Source: Macrocystis pyrifera
Taxonomy: Eukaryota; Sar; Phaeophyceae; Laminariales; Laminariaceae
NCBI GenBank assembly: GCA_031763025.1
Contig: JASSKH010000022.1
Span: forward strand, 92,128 to 156,127
DNA length: 64,000 nt
Direction of reading: 5' to 3'
The notes below the pieces were generated by a model. That model searched no databases, was not told where the DNA came from, and saw nothing but the letters and a program-made list of their open reading frames with translations. Below, piece by piece: positions 931 through 63,910 of this stretch; the first letter of the stretch is position 1; the number at the start of each line of letters is the position of its first letter. A program made the position numbers and the translations under genes.

Positions 931-1194
931 CCTCCCGAAGTCGCGGCCCGCCATCTTAAGTAATCTGCTGACTAACACGTGTCGCTACGCGTGGAGCGGC
1001 GACGACTGTCCCAGCCCCGCCTGTCCTTTCGATCATCACCAGGGCTCCCCCTCGGCCCGCGCTGGGGGTGCTGGCCAGGCACGAAACACGCTATCCCTCC
1101 CCCCTCCCCTGCCCCTTCCCCCTCCACCTCAGCGGCTGCAGGCCCCCGGCGCCGGGGGGAAGCAGCGTAGCTGGGGAGCGGGGGGTACTCATTA

Positions 1195-1400
1195 TCATGC
1201 ATGGCCCGTAGTCGTATGACCATAGACCCTCGATCCCTACAATTCCGGGACGGAGCACGTCGGGTTTTCACCGACCAGGTCGACATTGCTCGCACCAAGT
1301 GCGAAGCGCCGTGAGGTGTTGGGCGAGTCGCACGAAGGGTGAGCTGCATCCCACCAAGAACCGCTTTAGAGGCGGATTTTCTTGCATATGGATGACAGCA
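1195..1400 (-). mobile_element. C-tailed SINE-like element, copy cut by gap
   Basis: Read on the minus strand this copy ends with the family terminus ATGAGTAC and a C-rich tail (the G-rich run at about 1177-1190). It contains the conserved blocks GGTCGGTGAAAACCCGACGT and CATACGACTACGGGCCATGC. Its 5' part runs into the run of N at 1401, so the missing sequence is probably the rest of this repeat. Confidence 0.75.
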
Positions 1401-3462: not shown

Positions 3463-4945
3463 GCAACCCGCTAGACACCGCACGGCGTTTCGCGCTTGGT
3501 GCAATGATTGTCACCCTGGCCGGTCGAAACCCGACGAGCTCCATCCCGGCATTGTAGGGACGCGAAGGTATATGTTCATTCGACCACGGCCATGCAATAC
3601 ATGAGCACACCCCTTCCCTTCCCCCTGCTCCTCCCACAACGGCTCCTTGTCCAACGCTACCCATTCCCGCACCTTCTCCATGTCTGCCCAGTTCTTCACA
3701 ACCCCGTGCTCCATGGGGTACGTCAGGCGAAACACTCCCCGGTGCTCCTCCACCTTCGTTGGCCCGCGCGGAGTTATCGAGGGAGGCGGGTGGGTGAGGG
3801 GGGGTGGGTGGGTTACACGAATCGTGCGGCGGCACGCGAAACAAAACGGCTCCACCCTGCCCTCACGCTCGCAAAACCAGAAAACGTACCTCGGTACATA
3901 TTTATATAAATGTTTCAGTCTCTCTCGCTATGTATCAATTGACATCTCCCCCCCGCCCCTCTTTCATCTCCCTCTCTCTCTTGCATCTCTCGAATTCTCT
4001 GTCGCCTTTCTCTTCCCCCCCCCCCCTTCCCTCCCGGCCTTGTACGAGTGCGAGGGTCCATCGTCATACGACTACGGCCATGCATGACATGAGTACCCCC
4101 CCCCCCCCCCCTTCTTCTCTCTACTTCGATCCCCCTTCTCACTTCGCTTTCTCCTTTCTGTTCCTCTTTCTCTCTCTCTCCAGCCCCCCCCCCCCCCCCG
4201 CGACGCCCCTTCTTCTATCCCCCCCCCTCTCCCGAGCGCGCAGTCGCCGCTATTGCCTCGTCCCAATCCGCAATAAAAAAAATATCCCACCTTTTTCCCC
4301 AGAAAAACGTCACCATCCAGAGCCCCTCCGATCATCGCTCGCTTGTGCTTCGGCCTGCCCACGTGGCTTGTGAATACTACCTGCCCCACGCCGCCACCGC
4401 CACAGTCACCACCACCACGGCCACCAAAGAAACGAAAAAATTGAACCAAGTTTTTCGAAAGGTACGCCATGTCAAGGCAAGGCAAGGGAGGGCAAGGCAA
4501 GGCAAGGCAAGGCAGGACAGGCCAAGGCAGGGCGAGGCAAGGCAAGACAAGGCAAGGCAAGGCACGGCAAGTCAAGGCAAGTCAAGTCAAGGCAAGGGAA
4601 GGCGAGGCAAGGCAAGGCAAGGCAAGGCAAGTTCAAGCGAAGCCGAGCAATGCCAAGCTCCGCCGTCTTCGGCGGCGTCGGCGAATGGAAACCCCATTGG
4701 GGGCCGACAGGCGGCTTGGAGGCAGGGGAGGGTGGGGGGTGATAAGCAAGGATAAGCAAGGATAACAACTTGCCACACACCTTACTGCATCTACTCGTAC
4801 TTGTGTCATATGCATGCTACGGACAAGAGTACTGCTGTATATGGATAGCGTGATATCATGTACATGCCTGCAACCACTACTCTATTACCAGGTACCGATG
4901 TACCAGGTATCAGATGTCGTATCTACATGCTGACGTTTTTCAGAT

Positions 4946-6699: not shown

Positions 6700-7090
6700 C
6701 TCGACTGCTGCTGCTGCTGTCGCTGCCGCCGCCGCCGCCGCCGCCACTGCTGCTGCTGCTGCTGCTGCTGCTCACCGAAACGGGTGTGCGCCACACAGCC
6801 CTCGTATAGATACAAATGTGTCAGAAAATACTTTGTAAACGTATCGATATTGAACCATAAAATGATCGTCCTCAAACCCTACATTCCATCCCTGCTGGCA
6901 TCCGCCTATGTTGCTGACGACCCCTCCCCCCCCCCCCTGGCATGCGCATCCGCCACTAATATTGACGACCCCCTCCTTCCCCCCGTCCCCCCCGCATCCG
7001 AATCCGCCTCTAATATTATTGACGAATTCCCCCCCCCCCCCCTGCATCAAAATCCACCTTTTTCGTTGACGACCCCCCCCCCTCCTCTCT
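6700..7090 (+). repeat. CTG/CCG tract and C-rich minisatellite
   Basis: CTG/CCG triplets occupy about 6708-6772. From 6895 to 7085 there are about four imperfect units of roughly 55 bp of the form GCATCCGCCTCTAATATTGA followed by CGAC and a C run. No gene is seen between 6135 and 7090. Confidence 0.7.
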
Positions 7091-7092
7091 GC

Positions 7093-7537
7093 GTGAGCTA
7101 GACAACCAGGTTACCTTTTTTTTGTTTCGCGGTCACCACGGCTGGCGGTCGAGTTAGATCATTTTTTGTGCGGGGGGAGAACCTTAACTCCGCACAAGGG
7201 TGGTAGTCGTATTACGTAGTGTGTATATGGTAAGACAACCATGAGGCAGTTACATAGTAAACCCATTGCTGTCTCTGGAGGTGGCCACACCAGCCTAAAA
7301 ATGAATTCATTGACGCTGTCATCCGTATCAAAGAAAGTCCGCCTCAAAAGCGGTTCTTAATAGGATGCAGCTCACCCTTCATGCGACTTGCCCAACACCT
7401 CACGGCACTTCGGGCTTGGTGGAAGCAAGGTCTGCCTGGTCGGTGAAAACCCGACGTGCACCGTCCCGGCATTGCAGGGATGCAAGGGTCTATGGTCTAC
7501 GGTCACACGACTACGGTGATGCATGCTATTGAGTACC
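7093..7537 (+). mobile_element. C-tailed SINE-like element, full-length copy
   Basis: A near full-length member of about 445 bp. It aligns from TGAGCTAGACAACCAGGTTA with the copy at 10549-10991, and shares the T-rich block, GTGGCCACACCAGCC, AGGATGCAGCTCACCCTTCA, TGCCTGGTCGGTGAAAACCC and the terminus TTGAGTAC followed by C-rich sequence. It has no open frame of its own, so it must depend on another element. Its last 60-75 nt are related to the LINE tail at 52200-52266. Confidence 0.8.
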
Positions 7538-9196: not shown

Positions 9197-9305
9197 TATT
9201 ACGGGGGACCATAGTAAATAGGACCAAATAATGTTTATAAAAATACGTAAATATATAGGTTTTAATGTATACCATAGGTCCTATTAACTATGGCCCCCCG
9301 TAATA
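9197..9305. mobile_element. MITE-like element, TTACGGGGG family
   Basis: About 109 bp. The terminal inverted repeats TATTACGGGGGACCATAGTA and TTAACTATGGCCCCCCGTAA are flanked by TA on both sides, as expected for TA target duplication. The AT-rich core reads TAGGTTTTAATGTATACC. Confidence 0.85.
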
Positions 9306-9439
9306 GTAGAAGTGCACACACTTTGTTGGGGACAAAATACAGTATACATAGGCCCACAGACAATATATATACCAGGTAAAGTAGAGAGCGCTGGTTTCGT
9401 ACCAGGTACGATCGTTTTTTAAGCTCTGTGTGTGTTTTT

Positions 9440-10360: not shown

Positions 10361-10470
10361 CACCTCCTGGTCGGTGAAAACTCGACGCGCTTCGTCCCGG
10401 CATTGTAGGGATGCAAGGGTCTATGGTCATACGACTACGGCCATGCATGATAATGAGTATCCCCCCCCCC
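10318..10470 (+). mobile_element. C-tract plus C-tailed SINE-like 3' fragment
   Basis: A run of about 35 C (10326-10360) is followed at once by CACCTCCTGGTCGGTGAAAA, the 3' half of the family, ending ATGAGTAT and another C run. Confidence 0.8.
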
Positions 10471-10548
10471 CCCCGCCTAATATATATATTATATATGGGT
10501 TGGGTTGGCGTCGGTTGGCAACGACACTGTAAAACATGCCGCTCACTA

Positions 10549-10991
10549 CCTGAGCTAGACATCCAGGGTACCGTTTTTTTTTTTTTTTTTTTTTTTTTTG
10601 GCGGTCGCCCACAGCTGCTCGTCTAGTTAGATCATTTGTGCCAAGTAAAGAACCTTTACTCTGCACAAGGGAATTGATCGTATCACGTAGTGTTCAAGGT
10701 ACGGCACCCAAGAGGCAGTTACACAGTACTCCCATTGCTGTCTCTGCAAGTGGCCACACCGGAAATTAAACTAACTCATTGAAGCTGCCATCCATATGCA
10801 AGTCCGCCTCACAGGCAGTTCTTAGTAGGATGCAGCTCACCCTTCATGCGACTCGCCGGACACCTCACGGCGCTTCGCGCTTGGTGCAATGTCTGCCTGG
10901 TCGGTGAAAACCCGACATGCTCCGTCCCGGCATTGTAGGGATGCGAGGGTCTATGGTCATACGACTACGGCCATGCATGATAATGAGTGCA
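10549..10991 (+). mobile_element. C-tailed SINE-like element, full-length copy
   Basis: About 440 bp and co-linear with 7093-7537. It begins TGAGCTAGACATCCAGGGTA, has a T run (10575-10599), and ends ATGAGTGC followed by C-rich sequence. The 3' terminal 60 nt GGGATGCGAGGGTCTATGGT...ATGAGT are shared with the LINE tails. Confidence 0.85.
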
Positions 10992-18582: not shown

Positions 18583-18615
<33 letters not shown>

Positions 18616-21600: not shown

Positions 21601-23681
21601 ACTAAAAGGGTTACATGCAAACCACTCAAATTCTGAGTAATTTGTCCCCAAAACGGGGCTTGCAGTTCTGAAAAGGGCCATAAAACCCTTTTAGTGCATA
21701 CTGCAGTCCCATTTTGGGGACAAATTACTCAGAATTTGAGCGGTTTGTCCCCGAAACGGGACTGCAGCACTAAAAAGAGTTAAAAAGTGATATTCCTTTC
21801 GTGGCAGGTCAACTCCTGCCGATACACGTACGTATCCATTTTTATTTTTTTTTCCCCTGGTTGGCCTAAGACAGGCACGGTTCGCGGTTTAAATCTCCTT
21901 TTTGTACTGCACTGCTGTACGTGTAACCTAACTCTGACTGTACTGTAGTTCCAAGCGTTTAGTCCCCACCACAGGAGAGAGTGCAGTCCTAAAGAGCTTA
22001 ACGCGACGTGTGTGTGTGTGTGTTTTTTTTTTGCCTTTCGACATCCCAGGTGGCCTGGTGCGTGCGGGAGGCGGGTACCCTGCTGAGACTGTTCGGCTAT
22101 GACCCTGAGTCTCAGGTGCGAATTGCCCCGTATAGGATTTCCACGGGCCACGGATGATCCATACGGGTCATGGCTACCATGGAAGATAGATAACATGGAA
22201 CATGTCTACCATGAGACGGTAGTGACACCATGGATCATGGGTACCATGGTACATGGATATCATGGGGCATGGATATACCATGGTACATGGATATCGTGGG
22301 ACATACCATGGAATTTCAATATACCTTGGGTAACGACGGTAGCGACACCATGGGTCATTGATATCGTGGGACATGGATACCGTGGGACATGATATACCAT
22401 GGCACATGGATACCATGGGAACATGGATACCATGGGAACATGAATGTGATGGATAAGAGACGGTAGCAAAGCGCCCGGGCATAATTTGCCAATGCGTTCG
22501 GCCGTCGACGCTGCTTTGTATCTATCTGGGTTCCGCGTCGTTCGTTCTACTATTGTCGTACATGAAAAATATCCACATGGTTCTGCCGCGTGTTCCTAAG
22601 TAGTGTCCACGCACCCAGTCAGCGGCCACATACGCCATATATACCGAAATATACACTATTACGGGGGTCCATAGTTAATAGGACCTATGGTATACATAAA
22701 AACCTATATATTTCCCTATTTTGTCTGATAATATTGGGTCCTATTTCCTATGGACCCCCGTAATAGAGTGATGAGATTAACACAACCTCCTGGGATGATT
22801 TTCAGAGCCGATTTTCTCCACCACCGAGGAGGAGGGGGGGGGGGGGGGGGGTGGGTACGTACACGCCACAAAGACAAGGATGGGGCTTTGGGAGTATCTC
22901 GTCGAGTTTTGTTCTCATAAGCTCGCTGTTGTCGAGAACGTTAGCGCTGAAGTTCGTCCGAGAGCGGAGCACTATCGCTGGTGTGTTGTGGGATGCTCGT
23001 TCATGGCGTGATGGCTCCTTTGTGCTTTGCCGGTCGGCGGCAGTAGCGGCGGACGAGGGCGATGTCAAGACAATAGACCGGAGCACGTGTGTGTGCAATT
23101 TTGCGATGGACTCTAGCTTGCAGTGCCCCCCTCTCTCATCCTCCCTCCCGCCCCCCCCCCCCCCTCCTCTGCCTGGTCGGTGAAAACCCGACGTGCTTCG
23201 CCCCGGCATTGTAGGGATGCGAGGGTCTATGGTCATACGACTACGGCCACGCATGATAATGAGTACAACCCCCCCCCCTCCTGCAAGCTATGTCTGCCTG
23301 GTCGGTGAAAACCCGACGTGCCTCGTCCCGGCATTGTGAGGGTCTATGGTCATACGACTACGGCCATGCATGATAATGAGTCCCCCCCCCCCCCCCCTCC
23401 CCCCGCAAACTCCGCTGCCATCAACCCTGACATCAATGCCATTGTCGTGCGCGCTCACGCATGCGGTGGTGGTTTTTTTCAAGGGCTTTCCTCCGGCTGT
23501 CAGCAAGGATATCCTTCATCTGCAAAGCCGCTGTGCTGAAAGCTACCTCTCCGATATCGTCGCATGTCCCGTTGAATCTACCGTGGGAGAGGCTACGGTG
23601 GGGGAGGCTGCCGGGGAGGAGAGGGGGCGGGGCGACCGTGCTGACAGGGCGGGACCGTCCGTGGGTCTGCAGGCGGGTCAG
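11113..23681 (+). CDS. WSCD-like sulfotransferase, multi-exon
   Basis: Transfers sulfate from PAPS, probably to a glycan or protein in the secretory pathway. Exons: 11113-11210, 11611-11667, 13147-13224, 14425-14590, 15635-15701, 17308-17427, 20438-20734, 22050-22115 and 23484-23681, with matching phase at each join. Exon 2 holds the PAPS 5'-phosphosulfate loop [11 protein letters not shown]. Exon 3 has TGSDTR. Exon 4 has VVKTHYPER and the 3'-phosphate motif [12 protein letters not shown]. Exon 6 has [20 protein letters not shown]. These are typical of WSC-domain-associated sulfotransferases. A one-base deletion near 14520 (CATCCTCTCGTGCG) breaks the frame between KKAIL and VRNPF. Exon 7 contains an in-frame Gly run. 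The first exon (start codon, phase 1) and the last are not identified; an exon at about 26877-26999 is phase-compatible. Introns carry MITEs and minisatellites. Confidence 0.87.
11222..11415 (+). repeat. (TAC)n microsatellite
   Basis: About 65 TAC units, rarely interrupted by TGC, in the first recognised sulfotransferase intron. The poly-Tyr, poly-Thr and poly-Leu frames through it are not genes. Confidence 0.95.
11820..11877. mobile_element. Short inverted-repeat element (ACTCTGG family), degenerate
   Basis: CTCTGACGTGAACTG on the left and TTATATTTTCGTCCAGAGTG on the right resemble the ends of the elements at 2170 and 16068. Confidence 0.35.
11936..12013. mobile_element. Small inverted-repeat element (AATCAGAACC family)
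   Basis: Starts CCAATCAGAACCCACGATGG and ends GTTTGGTTCTGATTATTA, giving a hairpin of about 75 bp. Relatives lie at 12181-12260 (inverted) and 19620-19695. Confidence 0.45.
12075..12184. mobile_element. MITE-like element, TTACGGGGG family
   Basis: TATTACGGGGGACCATAGTA at one end and TTTACTATGGCCCCCCGTAA at the other, with TA on both flanks. The core is in the opposite orientation to the 9197 copy. It lies in a sulfotransferase intron. Confidence 0.85.
12371..12665 (+). repeat. Dispersed GATCT-rich repeat, copy 1
   Basis: Homologous to 26215-26480. Shared blocks include TGTATGATCTGTATG, GCCGGGTG, GACCCGCAT, CAGATCCTGCGCA and GTGTGAAA. The sequence is rich in AGATC/GATCT palindromes. No coding potential. 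Confidence 0.7.
12790..13045 (+). repeat. GTTGG/TTGG-rich tract
   Basis: Imperfect GGTTGGTTGG repeats ending about 100 bp before the sulfotransferase exon at 13147. Confidence 0.75.
13880..14390 (+). repeat. CTG tract and CCGAAACC-rich minisatellite
   Basis: CTG/CTT triplets at 13895-13926 are followed by some 430 bp of imperfect AAACCGA/GACC units, directly upstream of exon 14425. Confidence 0.75.
14700..14795. mobile_element. Possible ACTCTGG-family inverted repeat
   Basis: CTCTTGGCCGTGAATACAAC near the left and ATCGTCCCGGTCAGATTGGT near the right are weak matches to the ends of the family. Confidence 0.25.
15725..15862 (+). repeat. TTG/TGG/CTG triplet tract
   Basis: A mixed trinucleotide tract starting 24 bp after the sulfotransferase exon that ends at 15701, so it is intronic. 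Confidence 0.85.
16068..16166. mobile_element. Short inverted-repeat element (ACTCTGG family)
   Basis: CTCTGGGCGTGAATATAAGG ACCGTT on the left mirrors AACGGTCCTTGCATGTTCCG and CCACCGTGG on the right. It is the clearest member besides 2170-2255. Confidence 0.5.
16320..16670 (+). repeat. Dispersed repeat (GGTCGAGAG family), filled-site copy
   Basis: Same family as 9440-9665, with a MITE-like element inserted at 16447-16553. The flanking repeat resumes with CGGTCGCATCACCCCTGT and ACGGCAGGTGTCTTA. Confidence 0.65.
16447..16553. mobile_element. MITE-like element, diverged copy
   Basis: Ends are mutated (TATGACGAGGGAGCATAGTA / TGGACCCCCCGTA) but the core TAAAAATAGGTAAATATATA is conserved. Confidence 0.75.
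17822..17912 (+). repeat. 12-bp minisatellite TACCCGGATACA
   Basis: Seven near-identical 12-mers TACCCGGATACA / TACCCAGGTACA, each containing a near-palindromic CCCGG. Intronic. Confidence 0.85.
18120..18232. mobile_element. MITE-like element, TTACGGGGG family
   Basis: TATTACGGGGGACCATAGTA opens the copy and the right end is altered to GCCCCCCCGCAATA. Core ACACAAAAACCTATATATGT. Confidence 0.8.
18490..18586. mobile_element. MITE-like element truncated by a T run
   Basis: TATTACGGAGGGCCATAGTA starts a normal copy. The right terminal repeat is replaced after TATTCACTA by about 30 T. Confidence 0.7.
18848..18926 (-). pseudogene. tRNA-like sequence (Asp-GTC-like remnant)
   Basis: On the minus strand, a good box A (TGGCTTGGTAGG), an anticodon-loop-like CCTGTCAAG, and a perfect T arm GTGGG-TTCAAGT-CCCAC with box B GGTTCAAGTCC follow in tRNA order. 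The anticodon stem does not pair and the acceptor stem pairs only about 5 of 7. It is probably a dead tRNA or a tRNA-derived SINE head. Confidence 0.4.
19620..19695. mobile_element. Small inverted-repeat element (AATCAGAACC family)
   Basis: AAGAACCCACGATGCACCC on the left and TGCGGTTCTGATTAC on the right match the ends of 11936-12013. Confidence 0.4.
20195..20430 (+). repeat. ACCGACC/ACCAACC tetranucleotide tract
   Basis: Imperfect ACCR repeats that end just before the sulfotransferase exon at 20438 and supply its pyrimidine-rich acceptor region. Confidence 0.7.
21480..21790. repeat. Long inverted repeat with CAAATTCTGAGTAATTTGTC units
   Basis: The block CTCAAATTCTGAGTAATTTG + TCCCCAAAACGGGG at 21620-21660 is repeated inverted at 21700-21755, so RNA from either strand could fold into a hairpin with arms of about 45 nt. 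A direct copy is at 21565-21600. Related single units occur at 9095-9150, 33055-33170 and 63300-63380. Confidence 0.75.
22120..22455 (+). repeat. CCATGG-rich minisatellite
   Basis: Many imperfect units of TACCATGG-ACATGGATA in both orientations, starting just after the sulfotransferase exon that ends at 22115. Confidence 0.8.
22657..22765. mobile_element. MITE-like element, TTACGGGGG family
   Basis: TATTACGGGGGTCCATAGTT and TATGGACCCCCGTAATA form near-perfect terminal inverted repeats, with TA at both ends. Confidence 0.87.
23140..23395 (+). mobile_element. Two tandem C-tailed SINE-like fragments
   Basis: A C run (about 23150-23164), a 3' fragment (23168-23263, ending ATGAGTAC), a short C run, then a second fragment (23290-23380) that lacks 7 bp after CGGCATTGT and ends in another C run. 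Both begin within a few bases of CTGCCTGGTCGG and lie 90 bp before a sulfotransferase exon. Confidence 0.85.
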
Positions 23682-25378: not shown

Positions 25379-25440
25379 GGGGGGGGGGGGGGCGTACTCA
25401 TGTGTTCCTTGCCTTATTCATTTGAATAGTGACCACGCAT
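25379..25440 (-). mobile_element. LINE tail fragment
   Basis: A run of G followed by CGTACTCATGTG and GACCACGCATCCCTTT: the C-tailed LINE terminus on the minus strand. Confidence 0.65.
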
Positions 25441-25589
25441 CCCTTTAATTATAGTGGGGAAGTGCTTTTTAGGTGATGTGGAGGCGGAAATGAGAGGGGG
25501 GAGGGGTGCTCGAGATAAGTACCGCTACCCGTAGTCGGAAAGGGTTTCCTATGGGAGAAAGGGGGGAAGGGGAGGGGCGCGCGGGGGGG

Positions 25590-25692
25590 GGTGTACTCCA
25601 TGTCATGCATGGTCGTAGTCATAATGCCATAGACCTTCGCGTCCCTACAATGTCGGGACGGAGCACGTCGGGTTTTCACCGACTGTGCAGAC
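25590..25692 (-). mobile_element. C-tailed SINE-like 3' fragment
   Basis: A G run, then GTACTCCATGTCATGCATGG and CGGGTTTTCACCGAC: the family terminus on the minus strand. Confidence 0.75.
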
Positions 25693-26214
25693 ATTGAGGG
25701 AAGGGGGAAGGCGTAATAGGGAAGAGAAGGAGAAGAAGGGAACTCGTGGCGCTCGAGGCAAAAACCCTTGTTAGAAAAGGATTTCCTAGGGGATGTGGAG
25801 GGGGAGGTAGAAGGGTAAGTGGCGAGGAAAGGTGGGGGCAGAGTTGGGGGTAGGCGGAAAAGGGAGGAAAAGAAGAAGGGAGCGTGGGTGCTCGAGACAA
25901 GAACCACAGGCACCATTCGTGGGAAAGGGTTTCATAGAGAAAGTGAATGTGGTGGTGAGGGTGGTCAAGCCGAGTACCGTTACCCTCAGTAGGACACGGT
26001 TTTCCTAGGGAGAGAAGGGGGAGAGAAGAGGAGGGGCGGAACGGGCGGGAGACCAGGTGTAGGCGAGAGAAGAGAAGAAGAGGGGAACGCGTGGTGCTCG
26101 AGCGAAGCGCTACTAGCACCCCTATATATAGGGGGAGGTGGAGGGGGAGGTGGAGAGAGAGGCTAGAGAATAAAGTGTTCGGTCCAAGCACCGGAACCCT
26201 TAGTAAGAAAAGGT

Positions 26215-26634: not shown

Positions 26635-26765
26635 CGTACTCAGTTGTTGCTTGCCTCAGTCATTTGACCGTTGACCACGCATCCCTTTCGAGACGGAGCA
26701 CCGTTCTTACCCCTAAGAAATATCCCTCCTACATTTTGGGCGCAAATGACGTTTTTTTCCATATA
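26635..26765 (-). mobile_element. LINE 3' tail fragment
   Basis: CGTACTCAGTTGTTGCTTGC, GACCACGCATCCCTTTCGAG and GGAGCACCGTTCTTACCCCT are the reverse complement of the LINE terminus at 52130-52266. It is preceded by G-rich sequence, i.e. a C tail on the minus strand. Confidence 0.8.
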
Positions 26766-26876
26766 TTGGACGGGGGGCGGGGTGTGTGCTCATGCAACGA
26801 TGCGGGGGGGGGGGGTGGGTGGGTAGGGTATTAAGGGAACGCAAAGTGTGCTGATGGGCGAACCAATTTCATTCAG

Positions 26877-42700: not shown

Positions 42701-42811
42701 GCTATTACGGGGGACCATGGTAAGTAGTACCAAATAATGTTCGTAAAAAAAGGTAAATATATAGGTTTTTATGTGTACCATAGGTCCTATTAACTATGGA
42801 CCCCCGTAATA
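42701..42811. mobile_element. MITE-like element, TTACGGGGG family
   Basis: TATTACGGGGGACCATGGTA and TTAACTATGGACCCCCGTAA, with TA flanks. Confidence 0.85.
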
Positions 42812-42839
42812 GCCGATGGTTGTTCTGAAGAGATACCGA

Positions 42840-45499: not shown

Positions 45500-45616
45500 C
45501 AATTGCGGGGGACCATAGTAAGTACCAGGTAAGACCTACGGTACAGACAAAATCCTATATATTTCCCTATTTTTACTAGCAATATTTCGTCCTATTTACG
45601 ACGGTCTCCCGTAATA
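45500..45616. mobile_element. MITE-like element, diverged copy
   Basis: AATTGCGGGGGACCATAGTA and CGACGGTCTCCCGTAATA are mutated terminal repeats. Core AATCCTATATATTTCCCTAT. Confidence 0.75.
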
Positions 45617-46089
45617 CAATGCCTGGTCCAGGTCTATTTGCCGTCGATGCAACGAAAAACAGCAAACAACGGGATGTATGTGCTCGCCGACGAAGTGTGC
45701 TGCACCCAGACATGGTTCCGAACGCAGCTAGCATTAATATTATTATGGGGACAAAGTGCATCACGAGGGGGGGGCGCGAGTGACCAGCAGTTCGCCGTGG
45801 ACTTCAATCGTTTGTCCCGTGACCACAGATGGCATCGTTTGAATTGAGCCTATTAATAGTTAAGATGTTCTTCTTCTTATTTGTTGACTTGAAAACGTTA
45901 CTGGGGCGGTGCACAAAGCCGCAAGGGTGTGCTGGACGGGGCGGGAAAGAATAAGACAAAACCACCATCCCAGCGGCGCCAAACGAGATGCAAGTTGGCG
46001 CGGGTGGGTAAAATGATGAGCACGGTGGCCAACGGCTAGGTGGTGTCCGACAGGAATCGTTTGGGACATAAATATATAGGAGGTTTGGG

Positions 46090-48825: not shown

Positions 48826-49075
48826 GGTGTGTGGGGGGGGGGGGGGGGGGGGGGGGGGGGGAGGGAGCGGGTGGGGGGGGGGCGTACTTATCTGTTGCTT
48901 GATTTATTCATTTGACCATTAATCACGCATCCCTTTCGAGACGGAGCACTGTTCCTACTCCTAGTAGAGACACCTCCAACAATTGGGCGCTCATTACGTT
49001 GTTTTCATATATTACATAGAAACATTTTGCTAGGGGGGGGAAGGAGTAAGCGGGGGGGGGGGGGGGGGGGGGGGT
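48826..49075 (-). mobile_element. LINE 3' tail between G tracts
   Basis: G runs at 48833-48861 and 48873-48881 (a C tail on the minus strand) precede CGTACTTATCTGTTGCTTGA, CACGCATCCCTTTCGAGACG and GGGCGCTCATTACGTTGTTT (48882-49035). A second G tract follows at 49055-49074. Confidence 0.8.
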
Positions 49076-51266: not shown

Positions 51267-54200
51267 TCAGAGCCTGCTATGTGACTCCGGATCTGAGTTT
51301 GCTCGCGACAATTAGTATTAATAGGAAGGGAGAGAGACGAGGAGGGCGACGAGGCCATAACATGGGATTGGCACAGAAAAAAAATCAAAAACGAAGGAAA
51401 ACATAAAAAGTCGTACCAGGTCGCTTTACTTTTCCCCCCTCTTTACGGAAGAATGGCACTCGCCTTTCCGGAGAGAAACTACTTGGAGTCAGCGTGGGGT
51501 CATTTTAGCCGCACGGAAAGGGTTACGTGCTGCTCACGTCAGTACGGGAGAAAACATCAAATAAGGTGGGATGGCGAAAAGTTGAGAAAGTATGGAAGGA
51601 TACAGGGGGACAATAAAAAGAGATGTGTCCGCCAGGAAGTTTGGGAGGTACAAGGCAGAAGTACAAGGAAGGAAAGAGGGCAAAGGCTAGCCCTAAGAAA
51701 CTAGGTGGAATCGGAAAAAAAAAAAGCACTTGAGAGATATACGGGGGATTGAGGGACGGAATAGGAATGAAAACGTATTTGCACCGCCCAATGGACTTGG
51801 CGAAAACGCTGAAACTGCGCTTTCGCGTAGGGAACCTGGACCTGGCAGAATGAAGAAAGAGGTATACCAGTAGCCGGGAAGAGGAGGAAGTAGATGCACA
51901 GATGTGCCCGTGAGGCAAAGAAATAGAGTAGAACTCACATAGGAGAATGTGAAATATACACGGAGGAACGGGATGTGTTAGAAGAGGAGACGAGGGAAAT
52001 AGACGAATGTGAAACATGGAGGAGTTTTATACACTAGATAGCAGCGAGAAAAAGATCGCTATCCTAGGAGATAGATGGTGGCCACAGGCGGCCAAACAGG
52101 AAAGGGGACACGATTAGCAAAATTTGCCTATATAATATATGGAACAACGTGATGAGCGCCCAACTGCTGTAGGAGGTGTCTCTATTAGGAGTAGGAACGG
52201 TGCTCCGTCTCGAAAGGAATGCGTGGTCAATGGTCAAATGACTAAGGCAAGCAACAAATGAGTACGCCCCCACCCCCCCCCCCACCCCTGTTTCGCCTCC
52301 CCTTCCGTCCTTACGGAACCCCTCCCGCCCCCCCCCCCCCCCCCCCCCCCCTTTGCACACCTGAAAGTCAGGCCTGTCGCCACTGAGCATGGCCTCTGTG
52401 AAGAACTTTTTCGGTGGCGAAATTTGCGCCATGAAGGATGTCCCTCTTCCCCCCTCCCCTGCTCCTCCACCACGACCGCGGCAACCCCCTGCTGTCCTTC
52501 CTGGCGGGCTCGCGCCCCCGCCGTCGCTCTCATCGTCAGAAATATCGACGCCCGAACCGAACGCCGGGCCCGAGGATCAAGGAGAGCCTCGACGATCATG
52601 ATCACGGCAGGGTTGTAGAACGCCTGGCACAAGAGCGTCTCGGGGAGATTGTTGGGCACAACCGCGCCAGACGCTACCCCCTTCGACACCTGTTGAATGC
52701 CGGAACCGCCGCCGCCGCCGCCGTGATTCCTCCCTGTCCACCGCTTTTTCACCACCACCCCGTTGCCTCCGCCCGCGCTCGTTCTCTCGCCCTCGTCCTC
52801 GCCCCCGCGATGCGCGGGCGCTATCGAATGCCGCTGACGCGTGCGCGCCAAGCGAAAGTTCTCGGGGCGGCCGCAATTCCTACCGGCCACGCGGCCGCCG
52901 CCGCGGGGGGGGTCCGCGGCGGACATTGACTCGCTGACAGGCGGGGCGGGTGTTTTAGAGGTGTCGGCGGCCGCCCCCTCCGGGTAGTGGTAGTGGTCCC
53001 CCTCCTCCGGGTCGGACCTGCTGCTGCGCAGGAGGTCGACGAGGATCTCGTAGTGGTTCCTGTAGGTCATGTCGTGGAGCTCGACGACGGCGGGGACGTG
53101 TGGTCCCGCCGCCCCCGCAACCTGTGTAATGCCCAGTCAGTGCGGAGGACGATCATCGTTCGTTCGCGCATGTGTGAGTGAGTGAGTGAGCGAGCGAGTG
53201 AGTGAGTGTGGGGGGGTGAGGTAACAACTCGCGGGGTGACGGGGAGGAAATAAAAATGATCTACCACGACCAACACCCGTGCAAGCTTTTCGTTGTGTGT
53301 GCGTGTGTTTACATTCTTAAATTTTCGTGCTTCGAAGTGTATGTGAGCAGGGACGCATGGTGCTATAGTTAGCGGCGGGGGGGGGGGGACGAGAACGGTG
53401 CACGACAACGTGCCCGACGACGACCACATGTACTACTGCTCCTGTTGGCTGGTTCGGTGGAGGCGACGACCGTATGCCGGACGCCCAATCCACGAGGCAG
53501 CGGCCATCTCGGGAACCACGAAGAAGCCGCCCCCCCTCTGTACTCCCCGAAACGTGATGTTAACCCTGCGTTGGATCAGATTCAAGGTAAAATATAAGCT
53601 TCAACACATTTCCGCCTAAGAACCCCGCGCAAAACAAGATTCGACTCCTCCCACCCGGGCAGGGTCCGCGCATGTGTGGGCGGCGTCTGAATTGGGAGGT
53701 CTAGCGTGTCTTGTCTGTCGCACAACAAGGCGACGCCAGGGCCCATCGCCAAGGCTGATGCGCACCGGTTTGCTTTGCCGCTTCTGACTCGGCCATGGGT
53801 TTCGCTAGCCCTTTTCCTCCCTCTCTCTGAAACCCGACATGGGGGACGACCGTCGTCTGTCTGCCTGCCTGCATGCTTGCTTGCTTGCCTACCTGCCGTA
53901 AGACCCCCCGCGCAGCAGCGGCGCAAGCAAGCAGTTTTTTAGCTGTCACGCCGACTCTCCCTGTCCCCAAGGGCGTCATCTGAGCCCCCACTACTCCTTG
54001 GCGTCCTGCACCGTCTCTACTGCCCGTTCCCTTTCGTCTGCACTCGCCTCGACTAGATGCCCGATGGTTTCCGCGTCGGCATCGCAGGCTTCCTGTCCCG
54101 GGGAACTCTTGCCCGCCCTCATCACAATCATCCTCGCACCCTTCACGCCGGCCGCTCGAAGGGATCGCCTGGTCACGGGGCCTACCACCAGGCTGACCTA

Positions 54201-54433
54201 ACATAGAAGCGCCGGGGGGGGGGGGGGGGGGGGGGGGGACCGCGTGTTCAGACGCGGGCACGGGCAGAGGTTGATACATATATTGGGACTCGTTTTTCGC
54301 TAGAGGTTGTTTTTGTGTTTTGGGACGACGTTCCGTTGGCACCTCACAAAACAAACGCCGGTTGGTCCTCTGACTGAGAGCGAGCTACTCGCGACCACCT
54401 GCCTAGAGAATGCGAGCGTCGCCGTCTCCCCCC

Positions 54434-54483
<50 letters not shown>

Positions 54484-57400
54484 TGCGACTCTGCACGGGA
54501 CGTAATATGAAGCCTTTTTTTGTTTTGTTTTTTTTTTTTGTTTTTTTCCTGAAACATTCACACTGGTTTTGGCGTACAGGAAACGTTCTACTCCACGCAA
54601 AAACAAAATTGAGCCTCTGGCCAACTTCCAACACTTTTTTAAAGTGGTGGCAGGTACTACTACCGTACATAATGACGCGTGTTATTCCTAAGGGGCATGA
54701 CTTTTTTGGCCGAAAATATTGCTGACTGACGGAGCAGCTATCAATTATCGATACCGTTGCGCGATATCGTTTGGGTTTTTTGTAATATTTTTCGATATAA
54801 CAGTTAAGCCATGGCAAAAGCTCATCGGGTGTAGGGCTCCTGAAGTGGGGAGCCTCCGAAATTATCAGGTGCACGTCCATAAAAAAAAAAAAAATAGCAC
54901 ATGCATCGTAGTCACCAAAAGAAAAAATAAATACTATTCATAGGCGCGAATAAACGCCCCTCCCCACTTGGGATAAGCGTTGCCGATTTTTTCGAACAGG
55001 GTTGAGCTATGCCGCGTACGTACTCACGCGTGCACCTTAACTATCCATAAAAAGTAGACGAGACATGCGCAACCCGAAAGGATACCAAAAAAAGATACAT
55101 GAGGAGACAAGAAACAAAAAACAAAGCCCTCCCTCTCCTCCTCCTCCTCCTCCTCTTCCTCCTCCGCCCCACCTGCGGATAAGTTCGCAGCCGCCGCATC
55201 TCATCCTTGTCCTGGTCGCTGTTCCACTCGTAGAGGGGACACACCACCACGATGCCCATCTGCGGCACCTGCGGGGCCTCCAAGGCCTCGACAAGAGCCG
55301 AAACCTGAGACAACGTCGGCGTGACCAAAACAAAATACCCCGCGTCGCCACTCCCACCGCCTCCACCGCTCCCGCTTGCCCTGGGATAACTTCCGCGGGC
55401 TCCTCCGCTGGTCCCTCCGCTAGTCGCAACACCCGGGCTGGCTCCTCCGTCGCTTCTGCTGCTAGCTCCGCCGCCACCGCCGCTGACCCCGCCGAATCCG
55501 CTCGCTCCGCGGCCGCTTCCGCTTGCTCCTCCGAGACCACTGACGCCCCCGCTGGTTGCTCCGCTGATCGTAGCCCTTGCGGTAGCTCCGTCGCTTCTGC
55601 TCATTCCGCTGCTACCGCGGCTGATGATTGCACCCCCTGCCTCGTCCAATACGCCGCCATTGCATCCAATCCTCGCCAGCGCCGCCTCCGCCGGGGCCGA
55701 GTCTTCTTCCCCCCGCGCGAGTCGTCTCTCGCCGGAGGTGATTTCCGGGGAGGGGGGGAGCCCCCCGCTGGCGCGCTGCTTGGCGCTCACAAGGGCCTCG
55801 TCGTCGAGGCCCGCAACGGCGGTCTCCGCAGGAGGGTCCGGGGGAAAGATCCCGGTAGAAACGCCGCCGCTGCCGATCCCACTGTTGCCGCCGCCATCAC
55901 CATCCTCGCCCCCGGTGGCGGAGGACAGGTGAGACCCCTTCGGCCCCATACCACCATAACCTCCGTTCGGGGTCATTCTTCTCGCTCTCGGCCCCCCTCC
56001 CGCCCCGGCTCCCACCCGGCTCCCGCTCCCGCTCCCGTGCCCCCTCCCGCTGCCGCCGCCGCCGCCGTCGATGCCTTCACCGCCGCTATCGCGTTGCTGG
56101 TCGCAGAGGTCAGGGTGTCGGTGCCGCCGCCTCGCCCGCCCCTAAGCGACGCAGCGCGGGATTTTTCTACGATGGACTGAGCCACGTCGGCGTCGTCGGC
56201 GATGAGGAAGCCTACGTCTCCCTGCTTTGCCGTTTTTTTTTTTTTTTTTTTTTTTTTTGGGGGGGGGGGGAGAGTGCGCGTCAAGCACAGCAGGAACCGA
56301 AACGAAACGAGGGTGTGTTTTCGTTTGTGTGAATTGGATTTCAGACAGAACGAGGGAGACGAGCGCGGGGGGGGGGGGTACTTATTTGTTGCTTGCCTCG
56401 GTCGTTTGACAATTGGCCACGCATCCCTTTCGAGACGGAGCACCGGGGGGGGGGGTCCGGAATGAACGCGCACTGCTTGAATTTAGTGGCTCAGAAAAAC
56501 AGGGGGGAAGGGGGGCGGCGTCGGGGTCTTGCTTGTTGTTCAGAGGCGGATGAGAAACCAATGGCTCTGGGGGAGAGGGAAACTATGTACGTTTCCCTTC
56601 GGCTGAGACTATTGCGGAGCTGAAGCCACGAGCAGGTACAGTAGTGGTTCAGCGCGGCGCGGTTATATGGGGACGTGGCGGGACTTGTCATGGGCGCACA
56701 CGCACATCCTTGTTTTTTTTTGTTTTTGTTTTTATTGGTGTTTCCAGCGTCCCGCTTCGCCGTAACGGAGTATTTAGCGAGGGGAGAGAGAAATACGCAC
56801 GAGAGAGTTGAGAGACAGAACAGGAAAAAATAAATATATGCTGTCGACAACGTTTGGATTCGCGGAGCAAACAGTGTCTATCACCCGATTCCCGGCTCGC
56901 CAATCCGCCCCCGTCCGACAGTAGAAACCTCCGAGTTAACTTCTCAAGGCAACTTCTGAGGTAACTTCTGCGGCAGCTTCCAAAGGCACTTTGCTACCCA
57001 GCCATGACATCCCGCCGCCCTCATCTATTTCGTTGTACATGCATACTGCGCGCGGGATTTCAAAGGCTACATTCAATCGAAAACGTCGATCGAACCGCGA
57101 GGAACACGCGCCCTCAAGTCGGAGACTTCCGCCACTTGGGTTATATATTGACACGTAGCTATTCATAGCAGCTTAAAAGATCCCTACTAACATAAATATC
57201 ACATGTATAGTGGTGCTTCCAACTCTAAAATTACCAGGGCTGTTGACGGGTCATGACTCGACCCACGGGACGGGTCAGGAGGTCTTGGACATCTCACGGG
57301 TCGGGTCGGGTCAGGAGGTCTTGAAAATCTCACGCGTCGGGGTGGGGTTGGATTTGGTGACCCGATCCGACCCGACCCGGCCCGTCCCACGAGTTTTGGC

Positions 57401-59161
57401 CCGTCCCGTGGACACTAACGTTCCGTAGTTCGTATCATTCGCGATCGAGGTGTCAGACGCAGCTTGAAAAACGCGAGCATTGCCGATCAAAGTATTTGGT
57501 ATATCGAGTTCACAGCTCACGGGGTACTTTTTAGAGAAGAGCTTTTATTCTGCAGAAAAATAGTAAAACGAAACAAACAAAAAAACAAAAAAAACAAAAA
57601 ACAAGCAAACGGAGTCGCTCAGGACTGAGCCATGATTAATCGCCCGCACTCGTTCTCGTCACGTTTTACTTCGTACAACGATTATTATTTTCAAAGCTAA
57701 GTCGTGTACTGGTACACGCTGATGCACTCTTACGAAACAAAAACCTAAATTTGACTCTAATTTCGAGTGTTTAGTCCCCACAGCAGAAGATGTGAGGTCC
57801 TAAACCTCCCCTCTCTTGGAGTGCGTGTGGCAGCACCTGGGACACGATGTAGCCGGCGCCAGGGGGTGGAGCGTCACCCTGTCCTCCTCGCTGATTCCTA
57901 GCAGGATAACGCCGTGCTGTTCGAACATCTGCTGTACGAGCGCGCTGAATCCTCGACCGGCAAATACGCCGATAGAGACTACGTATATTTCTTCCGAGCG
58001 AGGAAAAAGAAGAACGAAAAGCCGAAAGGGCAACAGAAGGAGGAGCGGGACAGGGCAGGGCAGGGCAGGACAGCACACGACAGGACAGGACAGGACAGGA
58101 CAGGACAGGACAGGACAGGACAGGACAGGACAGGACAGGACAGGACAGGACAGGACAGGACAGGACAGGACAGGACAGGACAGGACAGGACAGGACAGGA
58201 CAGGACAGGACAGGACAGGACAGGACAGGACAGGACAGGACAGGACAGGACAGGACAGGACAGGACAGGACAGGACAGGACAGGACAGGACAGGACAGGA
58301 CAGGACAGGACAGGACAGGACAGGACAGGACAGGACAGGACAGGACAGGACAGGACAGGACAGGACAGGACAGGACAGGAAAGGACAGGACAGGACAGGA
58401 CAGGACAGGACAGGACAGGACAGGACAGGACAGGAACAACGAACAGACAGACAGAAAGTCAGTCAGATCACCACTCGTAATGAGTTATCAATACCTACGC
58501 ACATACAAAACACTACAGCATTGGACAAGCGGAGCACGTTCGCTAGACGAGAAACACGCGTTGAGTACCCCACACGAGTCCAATGACCAACACAAAATGA
58601 GCAAAACACATACGTCGTATATGTACGATACATACACGATAAATATATATGTATATACACTAACCATCCCTTTTGGGAGCCCAGGTAGTGACCCATCCCA
58701 ACAGTAGGGGCCTTCTATTCGACAATGTACCCGTCCGCGTAAACGCCTTCCATCCGACGTTACATCCGTTCTAGCGGGTATATTTTGCTCATGGAATTCT
58801 CACACACCGACAGTAGGAAAGGTATGTGGGCAATACAAACCATGTCCCCACCGCGCGCCTGCGGGTCTCTCGCGCCGAGCGCTGCTTGCGACCGGTGGTG
58901 TCTTTCTGTCTGCGACCGATGGTTGTATTTTAGGCCTAAGGCCCAGCGGGGTACAAGCGAGATGGGCATCATCCAACACTACTGTTACACAGCTTTCTTT
59001 CCGTCGTGTGCGCCCTCTCCCTCTCTCCCAACAACATCGGAGCGGCCGACTCCTCCGTACCGGTAGACGTTGTGAAAGGACTACTCACCTTTCCCAAGGC
59101 CGCAAGCGTACTCCTTTACCCAGGCGGGCACGTCGCTCTCCTCGTCTATCGACGCTGACAC
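50785..59161 (-). CDS. Slo/BK-type potassium channel, RCK gating-ring part
   Basis: Cytosolic domain of a tetrameric K+ channel gated by ligand binding to RCK1/RCK2. Exons (minus): 59161-59089, 57990-57837, 56221-55173, 54197-54012, 53121-52361 and 51018-50785, about 819 residues. RCK1: VPAWVKEYACGLGK, GVFAGRGFSALVQQMFEQHG, VTLHP..GYIVSQ, GDVGFLIADDADVAQSI. A Gly/Ser-rich linker of some 240 residues follows. RCK2: GYFVLVTPTLSQVSALVEAL, GIVVVCPLYEW, VVGPVTRRSLRAAGVKGARM, DADAETIGHLVEA, VPAVVELHDMTYRNHYEILV, LPETLLCQAFYNPAVIMIVE, then LMRYILREYDALPFGLLR and a final VMPLDKV. The order is that of BK channels. No acidic calcium-bowl cluster is visible. One base is missing in each of three exons (57862-57866, 55992-55997, about 52573); restoring one gives exact phase closure each time. 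The pore-bearing 5' exons lie past the right edge or in unrecognised sequence. Confidence 0.88.
51229..51265 (+). repeat. Poly(G) tract
   Basis: About 37 G in the last intron of the channel gene, 160 bp upstream of the LINE copy. Confidence 0.95.
51420..52268 (+). mobile_element. 5'-truncated LINE, plus orientation, C-tailed
   Basis: Co-linear with the better preserved minus-strand copy at 59805-60480. It holds the decayed end of the reverse-transcriptase ORF (many stops), then a 3' UTR with GTGGCCACAGGCGGCCAAAC, GGAGGTGTCTCTATTAGGAG and GGATGCGTGGTCAATGGTCA, and ends AACAAATGAGTAC + GCCCCCACCCCCCCCCCC. It sits in the intron between the last two channel exons. Confidence 0.82.
52330..52351 (+). 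repeat. Poly(C) tract
   Basis: About 22 C right at the 5' end (gene sense) of the intron after channel exon 52361-53121, 60 bp from the LINE tail. Confidence 0.9.
54213..54238 (+). repeat. Poly(G) tract next to a splice acceptor
   Basis: About 26 G (C on the coding strand) 16 bp upstream, in gene sense, of channel exon 54197-54012. Confidence 0.9.
54427..54484 (+). repeat. Poly(C) tract, about 54 nt
   Basis: One of the longest C homopolymers in the window, in a channel intron (54198-55172). No element terminus recognised beside it. A T/GTTTT-rich block follows. Confidence 0.95.
56236..56450 (-). mobile_element. T/G homopolymers and LINE tail fragment
   Basis: A T run and G run (56236-56270) lie just upstream, in gene sense, of channel exon 56221. 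Further right, a G run at 56369-56378 precedes GTACTTATTTGTTGCTTGCC and CACGCATCCCTTTCGAGACG (to 56444), the LINE terminus on the minus strand. Confidence 0.75.
56475..57230. other. Intron stretch, no feature recognised
   Basis: Part of the channel intron between 57837 and 56221. No exon or repeat family was identified in this part. Confidence 0.5.
57235..57405 (+). repeat. GGGTCGGGTC element, short copy
   Basis: GACGGGTCATGACTCGACCC, two units of CACGGGTCGGGTCGGGTCAG + GAGGTCTTGAAAATCT, and an inverted GACCCGATCCGACCCGACCC. Same family as 35540-36230. Confidence 0.75.
58076..58436 (+). repeat. (GGACA)n pentanucleotide satellite
   Basis: About 72 almost perfect ACAGG units in a channel intron. 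The long frames of repeated DRTGQ or SCPVL are products of the repeat. Confidence 0.97.
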
Positions 59162-59204
59162 CTGTCGCCCACGTGTTGCATTCGCGTTGCGTTCGCACGG
59201 GGCG

Positions 59205-59427
59205 GGGCGGGGCGGGTACACTCATCTAATGCATCACCGTAGTCGTGTGCGTGTGAGGGGTGTGCTCGATATCATGATAGGCCGTAGTCGTATGACCGTT
59301 GACCCTCGCATCCCTACAACTCCGGGACGGAGGACGTCGGGTTTTCACCGACCAGACAGACATTGCTTGCACCACGCGCGAAGCGTCGTGAGGTGTTGGG
59401 CGAGTCGCGTTAATAGTGTGTGTGTGT

Positions 59428-59476
<49 letters not shown>
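59205..59476 (-). mobile_element. C-tailed SINE-like copy beside poly(G)
   Basis: GGGCGGGTACACTCATCTAATGC opens the terminus on the minus strand. The body runs to 59415 (GTGAGGTGTTGGGCGAGTCGCG), then a (TG)n run and about 36 G (59441-59476). The terminus is partly duplicated (59217-59270). Confidence 0.8.
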
Positions 59477-59477
<1 letters not shown>

Positions 59478-61170
59478 ACTCATTTGTTGCTTTTCCTAGT
59501 CATCTGACCATTGTCCATGGTTCCCTTTCGAGACGGGGCGTACTCATTTGTTGCTTGCCTCAAGTCGTTTTGACCATTGACCGCGCATCCCTTTCGACTT
59601 TCGAGACCGAGCACCGCTCCTACTCCTGACAGAGGCACGCCTCTAACAGTCGGGCACTCATTGCGTTGTTTCCACACAACACAAAGCTGTTTTTTTTTTG
59701 CTGAATCTTGGTAGCGTGGGGGCGGGGGGGCGTACTCATTTGCTGCTTGCCTTAGTAATTTGATCATTGACCACGCATCTCTTTCGAGACGCAGCAGAGG
59801 GGGGGCGTACTCATTTGTTGCTTGATTTATTAATAGTCATTGGACCGTTGACCACGCATCCCTTTCGAGAGGGAGCACCGTTCCTAATCTTAATAGAGAC
59901 ACCTCCAACAAATGGGCGCTCAGTACGCCGTTTCCAAATATTGCATAGAAACTTTTTGCTAATCTTATCCCCTTCCTGTTTGGCCGCCTGTGGCCACACC
60001 GTCTATCTCCTAGGATAGCGGTCGTTTTCTCGTTGCTATCTAGTCCTCCATGTCACATTCGTCTATTCCCCTCATCTCTTCCAGCACATCCCGTTCCTCC
60101 CTGTACATTTCACATTCTCCTACTATGTGAGTTCTACTCTCTACTGCTTTGCCACACGGGCACATCTGTGCATCTACTTCTTCCTCCCGGCTACTGGTAT
60201 ACCTCTTTCTTCTTTCTGGCAGGTCCAGGTCCCCTACACGAAATCGCAGTTTCAGCGTTTTCGCGAAGTCCATTGGGTCGTGCAAATACGCTTTAATTTC
60301 TATTCCTCCGCTAAATTCCCCGTATACCTCCTAAGTGTTTTTCCGATTCCACCTTGTTTCTTAGCGCTAGCCTTTCCTTTTCTTTCTATTATTTCTTCTA
60401 CTTCCCAAACTTCCCGGCGGACATAGCCTCTTTTTGGTTTCCCCCTACATATCCTTTCATACTTTCTCAACTACGCCACCCCACCTTATTCCAGCTCGGC
60501 CTTTGGTTAGTTCTCTTATACAGCTCTATCAACCATGGCTGGCAACCTCTTTTTTGGCATGTTCCTTACTTTCTATTGCCATTTCAACTTTCTAATGTCT
60601 CTATTTGTCTTGAGTGGGTGTATTCCCAATTCTGCTCTTGATACTGTATTACTAGTCGTACTTGAGCATCCTAGGATTTTTTTGTAGCTGCTGTCATCTG
60701 TACTGATTTACGAGTTTCGTGTTCCCTTTCAATACTTCTCCTGCATATTCTAGCTTCGGTACTTTCACATTCATCAGGATACAACTCTTAATCCTAGTGT
60801 CAAGGTGCGAGTCTGCTGGGATCGCATCCATCTTGCCTACTTGTGCCTTACCCTTTCCTATTACTTTTGCTATATGTGTATCCCAAGAGCAGTCTTTTGA
60901 GATCTCTACGCCAAGGCACGTATACTGGTCTACGATCGGCGATTCATCTCATCCCACCATTTTACTGCTCTGTCAAATTCTTCCCTGTTATTCTACTTGC
61001 TGTGGTCTTGACCAACTGCTCCCATCCTTCTATTACCCTAGCTTCTGCATCATTCCTTTCTATATCGTTCCTTGTTGTACCTATTCTTTCCAACAGCTCG
61101 GAAAATTTATCTGCATTTTTGGCCATCGCTTCTTGGAACTCTTCCCGTTTCTCTCTTTCTAGAACAGAAG
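59477..61170 (-). mobile_element. 5'-truncated LINE with tandem C-tailed 3' ends
   Basis: Minus orientation. The body encodes, with scattered stops, an upstream helix-rich part (EEFQEAMAKNADKFSELLER), a reverse-transcriptase thumb-like part (LGCSSTTSNTVSRAELGIHP) and an intact C-terminal piece at 60285-60040 (LKLRFRVGDLDLPERRKRYT, then CPCGKAVESRTHIVGEC, a CxC...HxxxxC cluster). The RT catalytic core is absent. The 3' UTR ends at 59805 with ATGAGTAC and C-rich sequence. Three further terminal fragments follow (59797-59732, 59690-59537, 59535-59477), each ending at the same point. Confidence 0.85.
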
Positions 61171-61171
61171 G

Positions 61172-61208
61172 GGGTGGGGGGGGGGGGGGGGGGTGGGGGG
61201 GGGGGGGT
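61172..61208 (+). repeat. G tract at the LINE 5' boundary
   Basis: About 33 G interrupted by single T. On the LINE strand this is a C run directly before the truncated 5' end. Confidence 0.9.
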
Positions 61209-62506: not shown

Positions 62507-62617
62507 TACTACGGGGGGGTCCATAGTTAACAGGACCTATGGTATACATAAAAACCTATATATTTACCTATTTTTACTAACAAAATTTGGTCCCGTTAAC
62601 TATGGACCCCCGTAATA
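62507..62617. mobile_element. MITE-like element, TTACGGGGG family
   Basis: TACTACGGGGGGGTCCATAG and GTTAACTATGGACCCCCGTA, with TA flanks. Nearly identical in its core to 22657 and 32445. Confidence 0.87.
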
Positions 62618-63772: not shown

Positions 63773-63880
63773 TGCTACGGAGGACCGTAGTAAATAGGAC
63801 CAAATATTGTTAGTAAAATAGGTAAAAATATAGGTTTTTGTGTGTACCGTAGGTGCTATTTACTATGGCCCTCCGTAATT
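63773..63880. mobile_element. MITE-like element, TTACGGGGG family
   Basis: CTACGGAGGACCGTAGTAAA and TACTATGGCCCTCCGTAATT terminal repeats. Confidence 0.8.
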
Positions 63881-63910
63881 AAGGCCTGTACGTTAAGGAG
63901 TAAGAGTGGA

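Follow-up and report, generated by a model that had tools for sequence, protein, structure and literature searches.

The window analysed here is a stretch of 64,000 nucleotides (nt) from the genome of the kelp Macrocystis pyrifera (G000:C203:92128-156127). The assembly that was searched comprises 537,376,219 bases in 223 contigs, the longest contig met being 26.5 Mb. The window contains nine 3' ends of a long interspersed element (LINE) and ten 3' ends of a short non-coding partner, here called N, all with a related 3' tail that is followed by C-rich sequence. An initial annotation of the window had described this common tail for the LINE and for ends resembling those of short interspersed elements (SINEs), and had proposed that the LINE machinery recognizes a hairpin-like tail and either uses C tracts for priming or adds them. 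We confirm the observation, which reaches beyond that first claim, and now read the C run as a target that is probably duplicated on insertion instead of as a tail.

The LINE and its non-coding partner

The family ends in the window were found by similarity searches. The LINE copies are:

25394..25446, minus strand, LINE 3'-end fragment; 3' flank GC16, 5' flank with CCCC at most
26636..26769, minus strand, LINE 3'-end fragment; 5' flank CCCCGCCCCCCGT
48884..49032, minus strand, LINE 3'-end fragment; 5' flank C23GCTTACTCCTTC8, 3' flank GC10
51488..52265, plus strand, LINE copy (LINE profile), 3' part to the limit of the profile, then GCCCCCACCCCCCCCCCC; no C5 within 30 nt upstream of the profile match
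56378..56445, minus strand, LINE 3'-end fragment; C runs at 56445-56455 and 56367-56378 (G on the plus strand)
59476..59538, minus strand, LINE 3'-end fragment; abuts the GCCCC of 59540..59702, C34 after it
59540..59702, minus strand, LINE 3'-end fragment; behind the C-rich tail of 59732..59796
59732..59796, minus strand, LINE 3'-end fragment; behind the C7 of 59807..61156
59807..61156, minus strand, LINE copy, 5'-truncated; C run 61170-61207 upstream, C7 downstream

The copies of N are:

1185..1400, minus strand, N copy; upstream sequence masked, 5' flank unscored
3460..3608, plus strand, N copy, 5'-truncated; directly behind C62 (3399-3460)
4029..4096, plus strand, N copy; flanks C12TT and C15TTC
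7085..7536, plus strand, N copy, nearly full length; 5' flank C10TC
10366..10460, plus strand, N copy; 5' flank C34GCACCT
10478..10990, plus strand, N, full length (about 514 bp); behind the C14 of 10366..10460
23168..23266, plus strand, N copy; flanks C14TCC(T) and C10TCCT
23282..23383, plus strand, N copy; behind the tail of 23168..23266, flanks C10TCC and C14TCC
25593..25696, minus strand, N copy; 5' flank TTCCCCCTTCCCT, 3' flank AC9
59262..59418, minus strand, N copy; preceded by C34(AC)n, with another partial N end after it at 59216

When consensus tails were built from 7 LINE and 9 N ends (16 of the 30 copies scored below) and aligned with each other, 53 of 66 aligned positions were identical. 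The local score of the two tails was 46, against a maximum of 25 among 5000 dinucleotide shuffles. The exact 9-mer AATGAGTAC is present seven times in the window (5 LINE and 2 N ends) versus 0.35 expected, and none of 100 shuffles contained seven or more copies; variants of it, for example AATAAGTAC, CATGAGCAC and AATGAGTAT, stand at 12 of the 19 window ends. The LINE and SINE-like termini lie where the initial annotation had placed them, with a common tail and C-rich sequence after it, and the alignment of both families that had been proposed as a check bears the relationship out. Its statement that every terminus ends alike goes too far, the exact word being confined to seven of the 19 ends. 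We also evaluated the tail for a conserved hairpin. RNAalifold predicted 10 pairs from the 16 ends, none of which (0/10) had changed on both sides, with a covariation term of +0.18, and the hairpin-like character ascribed to the tail is unsupported.

The autonomous element is a non-long terminal repeat (non-LTR) retrotransposon, a LINE, as determined by its reverse transcriptase (RT) domain and by 5'-truncated copies with a common 3' end. LINE pieces from loci L013 and L010 matched the Pfam domain RVT_1 (E values of 1.2e-11 and 9.2e-12, respectively), and the relatives of this RT with solved structures include R2 and LINE-1 ORF2p. The C-terminal piece from L012 had no Pfam match, and a C-terminal zinc-binding match in the LINE was below the cut-off (E value 0.29). 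Among LINE copies with a readable 5' flank, matches to the LINE profile started at positions from 238 to 2378 and all ended at position 2436 of 2436; on their 5' side, the LINE copies examined end short of the endonuclease region. The C-terminal protein of the window LINE, used as a query, gave 6030 first-look candidates in the genome, and 150 of the 150 that were scored matched. A DNA similarity search of the same genome, which skips common words, found nothing elsewhere. No relative of the RT piece was found in the viral contigs, genome contigs or phage records searched, and two nucleotide patterns hit 0 stretches in viral contigs. LINE profile positions of about 918-1268 belong to an unrelated repeat inside L009, the 3' ends being untouched. 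This repeat, of approximately 340 bp, entered the profile as an insert; it is found inside and beside the L009 LINE copy (LINE match at 1-1929, and again at 1913-2248 on the opposite strand) and recurs at window 18595-18929, L003 4226-4575, and L006 833-1177 and 1661-1947.

Full-length N is about 511-528 bp (three copies as trimmed) and has no coding capacity, its longest open stretch being 77 codons (three copies, one strand). The three full-length copies contained no B box with fewer than three mismatches. A word resembling an A box, with a single mismatch, is present at N 268-285, and no B box follows it at this threshold. Known RNA families and tRNAs were absent from the window, which therefore gave no sign of a tRNA head for the partner. 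With no long frame, and no B box at the threshold used, N is a non-autonomous element rather than a demonstrated SINE. The proposal of a SINE partner stands in so far as N is short and carries the LINE 3' tail, but not in the strict sense of the term. Genome-wide, 11,215 places lie within three mismatches of a 43-nt stretch of the N tail, compared with 0 for the reversed pattern. The genome-wide counts of C6 after N termini and of C8 before an internal N site, given below, refer to the forward strand; gapped-pattern counts on the reverse strand look inflated by overlapping matches and were not used. Three exact N tails on one strand form a head-to-tail array at G000:C126:2463838-2464306, with spacings of 229 and 218 bp. 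N 3'-end fragments of tens of nt (L006 4407-4440 and window 59216-59262) also adjoin C-rich sequence. Downstream of the full-length copy at 10478..10990, CCCCCCACCTC resembles the 5' flank of the copy at 10366..10460.

C runs on both sides of the copies

The window was supplemented with seven 10-kb stretches from elsewhere in the genome, chosen by place. Four of these contained 11 further family ends, mostly with the same C-rich pattern as in the window, and three (L001, L003 and L005) contained no family end. The 5' breaks were set by matches to profiles of both families, which were preferred to pairwise BLAST because the latter had run through nested copies and C runs. In this way 30 copies with readable flanks (17 N and 13 LINE) were scored, 28 of them from the window and three of the 10-kb loci, with L011 and L012 coming from a protein search. 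Left out were window 1185-1400, the partial N end at window 59216, L006 4407 (a 34-nt fragment with no profile match, and the sole family end in L006), L009, L010 and L013 (locus or model edge) and L012 1-208 (edge). Two copies, L002 1915-2095 and window 59807-61156, were each joined from two profile matches; window 61156-60919 fits the LINE profile weakly, and the break of the latter copy is uncertain.

A run of at least five C within 30 nt after the terminus was present in 28 of the 30 copies, and the 5' flanks, which the initial annotation had missed, have C runs too. A run of at least five C likewise stood in the 30 nt before the 5' break in 26 of the 30 copies (N 17/17, LINE 9/13), a frequency about 20 times higher than the rate of 4.4% at all positions on both strands. 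Runs of at least five G were absent from all 30 copies on either side. Nine of the copies start no more than 60 nt behind another family end, and of the other 21, 18 have an upstream C5. The content of C was 57.8% in the 50 nt after the terminus and 49.6% in the 50 nt before the break, compared with 25.1% at random sites. A control repeat of about 105 bp, represented by 17 copies, had a C5 or G5 in only one of 34 flanks. These two comparisons, of the composition after termini and of C tracts beside unrelated elements, had been suggested as checks in the initial annotation and agree with its view that the LINE and a short partner have their 3' end in common and are associated with C tracts.

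The association was also examined starting from the runs. In 134 kb there were 79 C or G runs of at least 9, of which 28 were counted as next to an element end in the sense orientation, 0 in antisense, and 51 as free, two of the latter (61176-61207) in fact lying upstream of the LINE break near 61156. Genome-wide, 1007 of 1378 exact 22-nt N termini are followed by a C6 beginning within 4 nt, and the other 371 are not, while 112 N copies have a C8 within 20 nt before one internal site, a count taken with no G8 control.

Besides the two families, the window contains other repeats. The control repeat, about 105 bp long, shows self-matches on both strands; it is palindrome-like and similar to a miniature inverted-repeat transposable element (MITE). 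Its copies in the window, part of the 17 that include those in the loci, comprise those listed here and others:

9197-9306, about 105 bp repeat
12071-12184, about 105 bp repeat
16447-16553, about 105 bp repeat
22658-22765, about 105 bp repeat
32444-32553, about 105 bp repeat
42703-42813, about 105 bp repeat
45501-45617, about 105 bp repeat
62510-62614, about 105 bp repeat
63776-63891, about 105 bp repeat

An array of (GGACA)n, with about 78 units that match at 97%, occupies 58048-58435, and tandem repeats of 36-40 bp with CGGGTCGGGTC-like units are found far apart at 35581-35790 and 57266-57341.

Probable target-site duplication and a proposed mechanism

A duplication test was anchored on the C run and allowed up to 3 nt of element as junction overlap. 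At least 4 nt were shared beyond the run in 6 of the 17 usable pairs among the 30 copies (permutation mean 2.05, p = 0.0041), and the summed shared length in the same 17 pairs gave p = 0.0003. Bases recurring beyond both runs, junction overlap included, were TCC(T) at 23168-23266 and TTC at 4029-4096 in the window, TGCTCT at L002 1797-1644, ACGACCC at L002 3115-2772 and GGTGAT in L012, where a LINE copy sits behind an N copy and has C18GAGGT(GA) before it and C23GGTGA after. Among 26 pairs the 3' run was longer than the 5' run in 15, shorter in 10 and equal in one (p = 0.45). In the 5' flanks C peaks at positions -6 to -12 (20-24 of 30 copies) and is lower at -1 to -3 (14-16 of 30); this placement of the peak 6-12 nt before the break is as expected if the duplicated unit was a C run plus a few nt, which would give a short non-C end. 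Taken together, the C runs on both sides, the tendency of bases to recur and the lack of a length difference between the runs suggest that the C run is mainly a target site duplicated on insertion, and not mainly an added tail. As to the two alternatives in the initial annotation, priming on C tracts is favored by the two-sided runs and the tendency of the bases beyond them to recur, while addition of C tracts is not needed, 3' runs being no longer than 5' runs, but may account for some of the C.

We consider it likely that the LINE and its non-coding partner, with their related tail, insert into C runs and duplicate the target, presumably by way of a nick in the G run and pairing of a G-ended primer. 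In such a scheme the LINE endonuclease would nick the strand opposite the C run, at the 3' end of the G run there, and the resulting G-ended primer would pair with a C-ended RNA, the C being either the final C of GTAC or C obtained by read-through into the old target. Reverse transcription would start at the paired end and usually stop early, and cleavage of the top strand a few nt beyond the C run would lead to duplication of the run. One C run would become two, so that every insertion would create a further target; the nested head-to-tail copies at 10366-10990, at 23168-23383 and in L012 would be accounted for in this way.

Several points weigh against this mechanism. A cruder, unanchored duplication test on the 30 copies, with nested flanks mixed in, gave p = 0.09. 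In the anchored test, 11 of the 17 pairs fell short of 4 shared nt, and the agreement in two of the other six (L004 5356 and L007 4217) is largely due to C. Four of the 30 copies, all LINE, have no C5 in the 5' flank. GTAC is often separated from the C run by one or more extra bases (commonly G in the LINE and A in N), and simple priming does not explain them. The nicked strand is one that we infer, since the endonuclease domain was not recovered.

One alternative is that the elements carry the C run as a genuine 3' tail, which reverse transcription either copies from a template or adds, and that their insertion sites are otherwise unselected. The near-universal downstream runs, some of them very long (C37, C46 and C119, for example), would be accounted for, and accounts of LINEs and SINEs commonly treat the 3' repeats as belonging to the element, in the portion of the literature available (PMC3747384). 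However, a tail does not predict the upstream runs, which persist in 18 of 21 non-nested copies, nor 3' runs that are no longer than the 5' runs, and we regard this explanation as unlikely. A mixed model, in which a C-run target is combined with some added C, may apply. If the upstream run instead came from nontemplated addition at the 5' end of the RNA, and only the downstream run from the tail, the abutment of upstream runs on the break in several copies would follow. Under that model, however, G would have to be added to the end of the cDNA, and there is no account of the short non-C bases common to the far sides of both runs, which makes it extremely improbable.

Two further explanations dispense with a C-run preference at insertion. 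C runs could be so common that elements adjoin them by chance or survivorship, through selection or an effect of assembly, and such runs are indeed frequent, about 50 of the 79 long ones lying away from elements. The association is strand-specific, however, with no G runs in the flanks and none of the 79 runs antisense to an element, and neither the nearly run-free flanks of the control repeat nor the twentyfold excess at 5' breaks is in keeping with chance; we consider this explanation very unlikely. If the tandem arrays had arisen through template jumping or unequal exchange, and not from new insertions into C runs, this would fit the nine copies that begin close behind another family end, but 21 of 30 are not nested and most of those still have an upstream C5, and little credence, as little as for nontemplated addition, can be given to this possibility. 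Insertion into, and duplication of, C runs remains the reading we prefer. The chances are about even that, more broadly, the pair uses C homopolymers as target, as primer-pairing site and as heritable 3' context, multiplying its own targets and spreading C/G runs and nested arrays at more than ten thousand partner places.

Comparison with known elements

We know of no other non-LTR pair that is aimed at poly(C), and no description of a C-run target for a LINE and its partner was found in the open-licence literature, among the matches listed. The pair may help to explain the frequent C/G homopolymers and nested short repeats in this genome, considering the number of places at which the N tail is found. 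In Ectocarpus, as described in the available part of the report, RTEX-N1_Ec32 is a non-autonomous element of about 600 bp with more than 6000 copies, whose 3' end is conserved with the autonomous RTEX-1 and RTEX-2_Ec32 (RTE-X) and whose 5' origin was unknown to the authors (Dinatale et al. 2025, PMC12477816). The kelp pair resembles it in being an abundant non-autonomous element of a brown alga with a 3' end in common with a LINE, but the Ectocarpus description, in that part of the report, includes neither a C run nor a LINE target site (PMC12477816). Judging from the descriptions, the kelp pair may well be a relative of the Ectocarpus RTE-X pair, and the label RTE-X is considered for the kelp LINE solely by analogy with Ectocarpus.

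The sharing of a LINE 3' end by the partner is also a feature of the LINE/SINE pairs with common tails (Ohshima 2013, PMC3747384). The 3' repeats of those pairs, green-algal RTEX included, consist of A, T or mixed units (ATT, CTTT, CA, CAA, CCAT and others) in the available text, which has no (C)n among them, whereas the kelp run is present on both sides (PMC3747384). Insertion into simple repeats is reminiscent of the microsatellite-specific non-LTR elements, for example Togen at (TG)n and some HERO families; target-specific families are, according to the portion of that paper at hand, mainly early-branched ones with a restriction-like endonuclease, or Tx1 or R1 (PMC4640811). Unlike the target of Togen and HERO as given there, the kelp target is a homopolymer and is used by a non-coding partner as well (PMC4640811).

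If the proposed mechanism is true, the kelp pair offers a natural replicate of target choice through pairing of the nicked strand with the end of the RNA, in which C/G replaces A/T, and whether the endonuclease or primer pairing sets the targets of LINEs becomes testable from genome data. In LINE-1, too, the target run lies within the duplication. The preference of LINE-1 for 5'-TTTTT/AA may, according to the available part of one account, reflect both the choice of the endonuclease and the way in which the primer pairs with the end of the RNA (PMC12809410). As in LINE-1 with its poly(A) RNA, the primer strand in kelp could pair with the RNA end; the kelp pair differs from LINE-1, as presented there, in having C/G for A/T and a shared, sequence-bearing tail instead of bare poly(A) (PMC12809410). 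The kelp pair would be the C/G counterpart of LINE-1.

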